From Archangium violaceum (GTDB lineage: Bacteria; Myxococcota; Myxococcia; Myxococcales; Myxococcaceae), in assembly GCF_016859125.1 (NCBI RefSeq), contig NZ_CP069338.1, forward strand, positions 930,001-994,000: 64,000 nucleotides of DNA. The letters are read 5' to 3'. The notes under the pieces are model-generated. The model ran no database searches, was not told the DNA's origin, and was given only the letters and a program-made list of their open reading frames with translations. The translations under genes were made by a program, and so were the position numbers. Shown here piece by piece: positions 56,739-59,924 of this stretch (its first letter is position 1; the number at the start of each line of letters is the position of its first letter).

Positions 56739-57281
56739 CTACTTCCTGGGCTCCGGGCTCTTGCCCGCGTCCTTCTCCGCCGCGTCCGTCTTCGGCTTGC
56801 GGAGGGGACAGGATACGATCGCCCCATTCGGATCGATGGCGTCCTTGCCGGACTCCACCTTGAGGACCTTGCGCTCCTCGCCAATCACGAACGTGTAGCG
56901 ATTGGCCAGCTTCAACACCGGCGTCTTCACCTCATAGAGGTTCGTCAGCTTCGCGTCCGGATCCGGAATGAACGGGAACTGCGCCTTCAACGACTCCTTG
57001 AACTTCGCCAACGTTTCCTTGTCATCCGTACTGACGGCCAGGACCTGGCCGTTGAGCTTCTCGATGTCCGCGTACCGATCCCGGTACGCCGAGAGCTCGC
57101 GCGTTCAACCACCTGTGAAGGCCTTGGGGAAGAAGGCCAGGATGACCGGGCCCTGCTTCACCATCTCCGACAGCGTGTACGACTTGCCGGCGGTGTCCTC
57201 CACCGTGAAGTCCGGCGCGACGTCCCCGACCTGGGGGGAGGCTCCCGCGAGGAAGCCCGCTACGAGCGTGGGAATGAGCAT
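56739..57281 (-). CDS. Peroxiredoxin-like selenoprotein with in-frame UGA (selenocysteine)
   Basis: Read through one TGA at 57105-57107, the gene gives a 180-residue redoxin: short hydrophobic N-terminus, '[20 protein letters not shown]', '[17 protein letters not shown]', and '[19 protein letters not shown]'. The UGA (codon 59) replaces the peroxidatic Cys of AhpC/BCP proteins (TGGCT.EL). Both flanking parts stay in one frame and retain redoxin similarity. A hairpin with an 8-bp stem starts 15 nt downstream of the UGA, as expected for a bacterial SECIS. It would reduce peroxides in the cytoplasm or envelope. If the cell lacks selenocysteine machinery, this is instead a nonsense-inactivated peroxiredoxin. 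Confidence 0.82.
57070..57089 (-). promoter_or_regulatory. SECIS-like hairpin downstream of UGA
   Basis: On the mRNA, GCGUACCG-GGAU-CGGUACGC forms a perfect 8-bp stem with a small G-starting apical loop. The loop begins 23 nt after the UGA, inside the spacing reported for bacterial SECIS elements. CUCG/CGAG could extend the lower stem. It is read within the coding frame. Confidence 0.65.
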
Positions 57282-57294
57282 GCGCGAAAGGCTA

Positions 57295-58575
57295 TCACTT
57301 CTCGCCCATGCGAGCCCACACGGCCGCCGCGGCCTCGCGTGACTGCTCCGCCACCACGGACGGATTCACCGACAGGGGCCGGCGCGCCCACACGCGCCAC
57401 ACGCCGTCCACCATCACCGACTCCACGTGGCGCGAGCCCAGGCCGAACACCACGTGCCAGGCCAGGTTCTCCGCCGTGAGCGGGGTGGCGGGCTGGTAGT
57501 CCATGAGGAGCAGGTCCGCCAGCGCCCCCTCGCGCATCATCCCCACCTGCGCCCCGAAGGCCTGCGAGGCCAGACGTTGCCCATTGGCCAGGTAGCGCAG
57601 CACGTCGATGGGCTGCCCCGCGTCACGCGAGCGCAACCAGGCCGCCTGCGCCTCGGCGAACATGTCCGCGCTCACGCTGTCCGCGCCCAGCGTGGCCCGG
57701 TGGCCGAACTTGAGCGCCGGCGCGTAGCCCACCTCGGCCTCCATGTTCGAGCGCGGCGTGTGCGCCAGCCACGCGCCCGTGGGCAGCAACTGCGCCAGCT
57801 CCGGCCACGACAGGTGCCCCACGTGCGCCAGCAGCGTCTGCGGCGACAGCAGCCCACCGTCCACCAGCCGCGTCACCGGCGAGGCGCCAAAACGCTCCGT
57901 GGACAGCTTCTCGTCCAGCGGATCCTCCGCCAGCGGCACGTGCAGCCCCGAGTTGGTGCTCTTCACGGCCTCGGCCAGCCCCTCCAGGGCCTCCTTGCCC
58001 ACGGTGAAGAGCGGCGCCGAGCCCACCTGCCCGCGCAGCCGGCCACGCGCCTTGCGCGTGAAGGCCACCGTCTCCTCCAGCCCCTCCTCGCGCCCCACCG
58101 CGCCCCGTCTGTCCGTCACCGCGTAGGCGAGCACCCCACGCACGCCCACCTCGTGCAGCGCGCGCCCCACCCGCAGCAGCGAGCCCTGCACCGCCTTGGG
58201 CGAGGAGTGCAGGTCGAAGAGCGTGGTGGTGCCGCACTGGAGCGCCTCGAGGCCGCCCGCGGTCGCGGCCACCTGCACCGCGTCCAGGTCCAGCGCGTCC
58301 TCGTAGCGCCAGCGCACCTTCTCCATCAACTCCTGGTAGCCCTCCAGCTTGGGCCGGGGCATGCCGCGGCCCAGGCTCGCGTGGAGCCGCTGGTGCGAGC
58401 TCACCAGGCCCGGGAAGACCAGCTTGCCCGAGAGCGCGATGACCTCGTCGTCCGGGGCCGCCCGCAGGTCGGGACCCCGGGCCACGATGCGCTCACCCTC
58501 GATGCGCAGGTCCACCCGCTCGACACATGCTGGCTCGAGCTCGACGACGATTCCGCCTTTCAGGAGCGTGCCCAC
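57295..58575 (-). CDS. SsnA-like amidohydrolase-superfamily protein with altered metal site
   Basis: The 426-residue protein follows SsnA ('putative selenium metabolism' amidohydrolase) along most of its length: '[20 protein letters not shown]', '[20 protein letters not shown]', '[20 protein letters not shown]' and 'DAGQP'. But the first metal motif HxH reads HQR ('[15 protein letters not shown]'), and the HAAE-type His reads Pro ('LHVPLAED'), while 'LLAHVGHLS' and the late Asp remain. Two metal ligands thus seem lost. A GGAGG box supports the GTG start. Its stop is only 13 bp before the selenoprotein start, implying one operon. Confidence 0.87.
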
Positions 58576-58825: not shown

Positions 58826-59791
58826 TCAGGAACGCTTCGAGGCCTTGGCCTGGCTGCTCGTCCGCTTCGAGGCCTTGGAGGACTTCCCGCCCGAGCGTTG
58901 ACGCGCGGTCCTTCCGGCGGCGGGGCTCGTCTGGAGGGTCACGCTTCCCTGCAGCCTTCCCACCCGGGCCGTCGTCGAGCGGCGGGTGCCCGAGGCCTTG
59001 CGACGTGGCTCACCCTCGACCACCTCCGCCACCCGGTTGGCGACATCATTCGCCGCATCCTCCGCCACGCGCCGGGCACGCCGGGTCGCGTCGCGCGCCA
59101 CGTCCTGGGTCTCCTCGAGCATATCGCTGGAGGCCTTCAGCGCCTGGCCCGGGGCCTCGTACGTCCAGCGCCGCGCCTCCATCTCCAGATCCTGCGTGCG
59201 CTCGCGTCCGTCCTGGGCGAGTTGCCGCACCCAGGCCAGGCCCCGCTCCACCAGCTCGGTGACGAGGTCCCGGCTCCGATCGACGACAGCCACCAGCGGC
59301 ATCACCAGATTGCCCGGAGGCTCGTCCGGAAGCCGTGGGTGCGGACGCGTCGGCACGGCCCGCTTCGCAAGTGCGAGCGCGTCCGCCATGGAGTCGAGCT
59401 CCTCCTGCGCGAACGCACGGCGCAGGCTGGGGAACAGCTCGTTCTCCTCCTCCTCGATGTGGTGCAGCATGTTCTGCACCAGCACGGCGAACCTGGCGTC
59501 GAACCGCGAGTCCCGCGGGTCCATCTTCTGGAGCGCGGCGAGCTCCCACTTGGCGACCCGGTGCTCCTCGAGGGCCTTGTCGATCCGCGCGACCCACCGT
59601 GAGTCATGGACCTTCACGGAGGGATAGAAGATCTGCTCCTCGATGGCGGCGTGGATGGAGAGCTCCAGGATGACCCGCCTGGCGATCTCCTGCTTCTTTT
59701 CCGTGTCACCTCGGTGTTTGAGCGTCTCGTAACGCTTGAACAGTTTCTGGATGACTGCATGGTCCTGTTTCAGAAGAGCGATGGCGTCCAT
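58826..59791 (-). CDS. Hemerythrin HHE protein with basic, Lys/Ser-rich tail
   Basis: The 321-residue protein starts at the Met of 'MDAIALLKQDHAVIQKLF' and has an HHE hemerythrin-like domain with 'LSIHAAIEEQIFYP', 'EEHRVAKWEL' and 'NMLHHIEEEENELFPSL', giving the His/Glu ligands of a di-iron site. The middle is a long amphipathic helix (about 185-265), and the last 60 residues are Arg/Lys/Ser/Thr-rich like a DNA-binding tail ('KSSKASKRTSSQAKASKRS'). Oxygen, NO or iron handling near DNA is inferred. Confidence 0.87.
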   Translation of the reverse strand: MDAIALLKQDHAVIQKLFKRYETLKHRGDTEKKQEIARRVILELSIHAAIEEQIFYPSVKVHDSRWVARIDKALEEHRVAKWELAALQKMDPRDSRFDARFAVLVQNMLHHIEEEENELFPSLRRAFAQEELDSMADALALAKRAVPTRPHPRLPDEPPGNLVMPLVAVVDRSRDLVTELVERGLAWVRQLAQDGRERTQDLEMEARRWTYEAPGQALKASSDMLEETQDVARDATRRARRVAEDAANDVANRVAEVVEGEPRRKASGTRRSTTARVGRLQGSVTLQTSPAAGRTARQRSGGKSSKASKRTSSQAKASKRS

Positions 59792-59924
59792 GCCGTATGG
59801 GTAGGCACCTTGACACAATGCGTCAACAGAGCCTGCTCGGACGAGTGCTCGCCTGGCGGATGAGCGCTCGGTGGAGCGCCGCGGAGGCTACACTCACGCC
59901 ACTCTTCACCAATCTGGTGCCGAC

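Follow-up and report, generated by a model that had tools for sequence, protein, structure and literature searches.

A predicted selenocysteine peroxiredoxin in Archangium violaceum and the alternation of selenocysteine and cysteine among its homologs

We analyzed a 64,000-nucleotide stretch of the Archangium violaceum genome (positions 930,001 to 994,000 of contig NZ_CP069338.1, referred to here as the window) and identified a minus-strand gene that very probably encodes a selenocysteine (Sec) peroxiredoxin, a reading to which we assign a probability of about 0.94. The reading frame, the Sec machinery of the genome, the alternation of TGA and Cys codons among the homologs and the conserved Thr, Arg and Cys residues were all computed here; from these we infer the insertion of Sec and the peroxidase activity. 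The features of the locus, numbered from the first nucleotide of the window, were the following.

56739-57281, minus strand: selenocysteine-containing peroxiredoxin coding sequence with an AhpC/TSA domain, 180 aa with the UGA read as Sec (predicted)
57237-57281, minus strand: hydrophobic N-terminal leader, residues 1-15, a possible signal peptide or anchor
57105-57128, minus strand: active-site motif P52-x3-T56-x2-U59 (P52 in 105/114 and T56 in 113/114 homologs)
57105-57107, minus strand: UGA codon 59, predicted Sec at the peroxidatic position (TGA in 53/114 homologs, Cys codons in 61/114)
57070-57089, minus strand: putative bacterial SECIS hairpin, 8 bp, loop GGAU, 15 nt past the UGA
56898-56900, minus strand: Arg128, candidate conserved catalytic Arg (R in 114/114 homologs)
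56808-56810, minus strand: Cys158, candidate resolving Cys in the C-terminal SCPLRK motif, proposed from its conservation
57295-58575, minus strand: SsnA-like amidohydrolase, the upstream neighbour, 13 nt before the peroxiredoxin start (PF01979, 85.6 bits)

Reading frame, protein family and selenocysteine machinery

The first-pass annotation of this DNA had described one redoxin frame on the minus strand, interrupted solely by a TGA at 57107-57105, exactly where the peroxidatic Cys would be expected, and both points held. When the TGA was translated as a residue, the frame from 57281 to 56739 contained zero other stops. The TGA was the last position of PKAFTGGU, which matches the PxxxTxxU motif as defined in PMC13188914. 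In an alignment with solved BCP-type peroxiredoxins, this position fell on the Cys of their active-site motif. Translated by the standard code, the same frame contained a downstream ORF of 90 aa with a TTG start (57011-56739, minus strand), so that ordinary annotation would drop the N-terminus of the peroxiredoxin, as had been anticipated. This TTG, 94 nt downstream, could point to programmed truncation or two-part expression, in which the UGA stops translation and the codon at 57011 starts a separate C-terminal product. However, the downstream piece is without the active-site motif and the Cys homologs are one uninterrupted protein, and we consider this arrangement the least probable of the alternatives, with next to no weight.

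The predicted protein scored 111.6 bits against PF00578 (AhpC-TSA; cut-off 26) and 72.5 bits, well above the cut-off, against PF08534 (Redoxin). Its scores were below the cut-offs of the PrxU equivalog NF040737 (41.8 against 270 bits), the thioredoxin-dependent thiol peroxidase BCP model NF006960 (66.9 against 140) and the AhpC model TIGR03137 (52 against 272). An AlphaFold2 model built on 24 aligned sequences had a mean pLDDT of 84.1, and the best-scoring solved folds for it were BcpB, AhpE and Bcp1 (Z 23.6-24.1, rmsd 1.7-2.4, 148-149 residues aligned), with ranks within Z 1 counted as tied. Asp107 and Arg128 were each kept in 114/114 homolog rows and T56 in 113/114; Arg128 is presumably the catalytic Arg of peroxiredoxins. 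Exactly one Cys followed codon 59 in every one of the 114 homologs, at least 86 residues on. In the window protein this residue is Cys158, whose conservation makes it a candidate resolving Cys. A hydrophobic N-terminus was present in most of the 15 homolog rows inspected, and residues 4-12 of the AlphaFold2 model had a pLDDT below 50. The leader may serve for export out of the cytoplasm.

A search for the Sec machinery had been proposed as one check of the first-pass reading, and all four components were present in the genome, a single contig of 12,677,854 bases. We detected tRNA-Sec with the anticodon TCA (73.2 bits, cut-off 47), selB (325.6 bits, cut-off 242.25), selA (576.9 bits, cut-off 267.9) and selD (380.3 bits, cut-off 125). 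The SelD gene (12336739-12337668, minus strand) had one in-frame TGA in the context CAGUAAK, which we take to be the usual Cys/Sec position of SelD; SelD is therefore probably a selenoprotein too. An FDH-alpha-like gene (3768004-3768756, minus strand), with a TIGR01591 score below the cut-off, carried an in-frame TGA in QARIUHSS, presumably the Sec context of FdnG, and is the likely third selenoprotein of the genome. Judged by these frames, the genome probably encodes at least three selenoproteins, namely the peroxiredoxin, SelD and the FDH-alpha-like protein.

In the mechanism that we propose, SelD, SelA and tRNA-Sec(UCA) would supply Sec-tRNA, and SelB, acting on the hairpin just past the UGA, would deliver it at codon 59. 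Within the P-x3-T-x2-U loop and together with Arg128, the selenol of residue 59 would reduce peroxide. The selenenic acid would then be resolved by Cys158, the only other invariant Cys, giving a Sec-Cys intermediate from which a thiol reductant would restore the enzyme.

The upstream amidohydrolase is possibly in one operon with the peroxiredoxin. It scored 322.6 and 311.9 bits against the SsnA models, below the cut-offs of 444 and 455.5, and since both were missed we make no claim of a selenium link through this neighbour. Upstream of the amidohydrolase lies a hemerythrin-domain protein (58826-59818, minus strand; PF01814, 56.9 bits) whose tail is rich in Lys, Ser and Ala.

Codon 59 among homologs

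We searched 147 genomes of the class for homologs at E <= 1e-25 and read the DNA of every matching copy. This search identified 114 copies in 111 of the genomes and no homolog at this threshold in the other 36. The window's family contributed 85 of the copies, and two additional families of the order contributed the remaining 29. Codon 59 was TGA in 53 copies, TGC in 57 and TGT in 4; no other codon and no other stop occurred at this position, and all 61 non-TGA homologs therefore had a Cys aligned with the UGA. A 39%-identical peroxiredoxin (L101 of genome G087), with TGC at the site, was kept outside all of the 114-row counts. The first-pass annotation had named two observations that would refute its reading, a genome devoid of Sec machinery and sister homologs with frameshifts and other stops in place of a conserved UGA/Cys position; both were checked, and neither refuted it.

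The gene might be a pseudogene, with a recent nonsense mutation or a sequencing error making the TGA a real stop in a decaying gene, and the standard code does break the frame and list only the 90-aa fragment. However, the same TGA codon recurred in 53/114 homologs, spread over three families of the order, and wherever it was missing a Cys codon stood in its place. Since codon 59 was always TGA or Cys, decay and sequencing error were ruled out. The NG86 dN/dS values against eight relatives ranged from 0 to 0.52 on the upstream side of the site and from 0.06 to 0.45 on the downstream side, indicating purifying selection on both flanks in 8/8 comparisons, in keeping with the earlier impression that both sides are in frame, redoxin-like and not decaying. 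We regard the pseudogene explanation as scarcely credible.

Within the window's own genus, four of the five other genomes (G002, G004, G005 and G006) had a TGA copy and one (G003) had TGT; G004 and G006 also had a second copy with TGC. Two different copies (L082 and L099), both with TGA at the site, were present in G044. Among loci for which 800 nt or more of upstream sequence was present, the amidohydrolase was the same-strand neighbour at 27/52 TGA and 49/59 Cys loci, and it stood beside no copy of the two other families. Its occurrence beside both forms indicates that the Sec and Cys forms are largely at one locus within the family. In G004 (copies at C2:185201 and 428155; L102 and L020) and G006 (copies at C1:2089592 and 2408055; L103 and L023), the Cys copy adjoins the amidohydrolase and the Sec copy lies elsewhere.

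The genomes of 109/114 copies contained selA, including those of 51/53 TGA homologs and 58/61 Cys homologs. The five copies in genomes without selA had Cys in G012, G035 and G103 and TGA in G008 and G083, the latter two being fragmented draft assemblies with a completeness of 80% and 87%. For G035, a two-contig genome, completeness is 100%; no selA or tRNA-Sec match in it exceeded the cut-offs, and its codon was TGC. Since 58/61 Cys copies occur alongside selA, the presence of the machinery is no predictor of TGA, and its loss fails to explain most of the Cys forms. tRNA-Sec was above the cut-off in 88/96 family genomes, with 87 reaching 60 bits; a match above the cut-off was not found in G048 and G088, which have TGA and selA and are assembled in 730 and 910 contigs, respectively. 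We also considered UAG as a Sec codon and rejected it: a TAG was listed in G014, G065, G075 and G076, yet the site codon was TGC in all four, the TAG of G076 was its terminal stop, and the site codon of further TAG-marked homologs was TGA or TGC.

Hairpin downstream of the UGA

The first-pass annotation had pointed to a perfect 8-bp stem starting 15 nt after the UGA. The stem itself was confirmed as GCGTACCG-GGAT-CGGTACGC (57089-57070), with 8 perfect pairs at +16 to +35 from the UGA. The bacterial SECIS rule, as stated in PMC13188914, calls for a loop of 3-9 nt, a stem of 4-16 bp, a G in the first two loop positions, a distance of 16-37 nt from the UGA and an energy of at most -7.5 kcal/mol. 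We applied this rule strictly, with mismatches disallowed, and the window hairpin satisfied it at -13.1 kcal/mol. As a background, we examined 2180 codons of five window genes; a rule-satisfying hairpin was present downstream of 440 (20.2%), and one at least as stable as -13.1 kcal/mol after 64 (2.9%). The peptide encoded by the stem, AYRDRYAD, is palindromic, and at the level of RNA it is almost identical to its reverse. With this peptide held fixed, the synonymous-codon null gave 6.83 of the 8 pairs on average and all 8 in about 18-19% of draws (p = 0.19); none of the 114 sequences reached p < 0.05 under this null. The hairpin as a stand-alone proof of Sec was thus ruled out, and since the peptide itself is palindromic, it carries less weight than was first claimed. 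Taken alone, the window hairpin does not go beyond chance, whereas the TGA does, by its position and its conservation.

We then compared the TGA and Cys copies. The SECIS rule was satisfied in 39/53 TGA copies versus 7/61 Cys copies. Where the peptide AYRDRYA was identical, all 8 pairs were formed in 33/35 TGA versus 4/15 Cys copies (Fisher p = 2.3e-6, uncorrected for kinship). With one of the families (f2) excluded, 97.3% of stem cells were paired in 33 distinct TGA sequences versus 60.9% in 48 distinct Cys sequences, and sliding the TGA stem by 1-3 lowered the pairing to 13.6-37.9%. All 8 pairs were retained in 6/61 Cys copies, which resembles a SECIS remnant, but the same outcome can arise from the peptide alone. 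In G125-G127, stem pair 5 was altered on both sides from A-U to U-A, so that one Tyr became Phe and the opposite one became Asn or Ser; these genomes form one clade, so the double change was probably one event. Cells with a double change of this type numbered 3 in the TGA set and 0-2 in the slid TGA stems, and in the Cys set they numbered 1 unslid and 17 at +2. Given the single clade and the slid-stem counts, the covariation is weak evidence for a SECIS.

A hairpin conforming to the strict rule was absent in 14/53 TGA homologs, including 2 of the same genus and 4/5 of f2. The stem was shortened in seven TGA copies of one genus (g19) and mismatched in two TGA copies of the window's genus, and the f2 copies did not use the window-type hairpin. 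These 14 homologs would fit a reading of the UGA as Trp or another standard residue, or one without a SECIS-directed mechanism. On the other hand, the alternative residue was Cys in 61/61, which fits Sec chemistry, and the genome encodes the Sec pathway as well as two more selenoprotein-type genes with an in-frame TGA, making readthrough of this kind highly unlikely. On the codon table of the 114 homologs, we rejected the pseudogene, the split gene and non-Sec readthrough, and we retain the selenocysteine peroxiredoxin as the reading of the window gene.

Direction of the Sec/Cys switches and relation to known peroxiredoxins

A tree of the 114 rows, made with column 59 masked by a quick method from one short gene, had 38 open forks. 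At least 10 Sec/Cys changes were required on it, of which the starred branches alone force 5. We chose f2 as the root within the homologs, and the direction of change depends on that root. With f2 as the root, a Sec ancestor needed 10 changes, and every one of them can be a Sec-to-Cys change, versus 12 for a Cys ancestor and 18 for gains alone. The corresponding numbers were 10, 13 and 26 with branches below 80 collapsed, and 19, 23 and 41 with branches below 95 collapsed. There were about ten Sec/Cys switches on this tree, best read as Sec to Cys, in lineages mostly keeping the machinery. For Prx, a 2006 survey listed 0 Sec-to-Cys and 5 Cys-to-Sec conversions (PMC1794560, Table 1), the opposite of the parsimonious direction on our root-dependent tree.

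We offer a tentative scenario, to which we give somewhat less than even odds. The ancestral peroxiredoxin of the order would have been Sec-based, and about ten lineages would have swapped Sec for Cys singly, mostly retaining the machinery and some leaving a SECIS remnant. The SECIS would also have constrained the protein, so that the AYRDRYAD helix was kept in most UGA copies and both tyrosines changed in one clade in a way that held the stem. If this is true, the probably exported family would offer a natural series for studying the benefit of selenium to a peroxidase in bacteria that are aerobic predators. In the window and in 52 other homologs of a single order, the enzyme is intact although ordinary gene calling would truncate it. 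Close Sec and Cys versions of it exist even within one genus (TGA in the window, TGT in G003), and the cost and benefit of Sec are open to a one-codon exchange in matched backgrounds. Among the titles and abstract openings that we looked through, we found no paper on myxobacterial selenoproteins and none describing recurrent Sec/Cys switches within the order.

The best sequence and fold matches of the window protein were of the BCP/PrxQ and AhpE types (BcpB 5epf, Bcp1 3drn and AhpE 4x0x); for BcpB 5epf, the model aligned with Z 24.1, rmsd 1.8 and 32% identity over 148 residues. We take these three proteins to carry Cys. The window family, unlike them, has Sec or Cys at the site and retains a single Cys close to the C-terminus, beyond the core of the fold. 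The C-terminal Cys-Pro of many homologs presumably resembles the resolving Cys of typical 2-Cys AhpC/Prx1 proteins; unlike these, the window protein scored far below the AhpC model (TIGR03137).

The Sec peroxiredoxin type is already known, and the window gene is a further member of it. We take Anaeromyxobacter to belong to the same order as the window organism. Prx (TxxU) is an established Sec family, with 91 selenoproteins in 78 organisms as of 2016 according to PMC5029168. The 2006 survey (PMC1794560, Table 3) gave three peroxiredoxin selenoproteins for Anaeromyxobacter dehalogenans, and our comparison with this organism is by that published listing. The Sec peroxiredoxin of Eubacterium acidaminophilum is an example of Prx (TxxU), as cited in PMC9312934. 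Since the family is already established, Anaeromyxobacter included, we filed the window gene as an additional member. Like Prx (TxxU), the window gene has the AhpC/TSA domain, PxxxTxxU, a UGA at the peroxidatic position, a downstream hairpin and Cys homologs. Unlike Prx (TxxU), the window family has a hydrophobic N-terminal leader and one invariant C-terminal Cys, shows Sec and Cys in alternation inside single genera, and has members in the window's genus and family.
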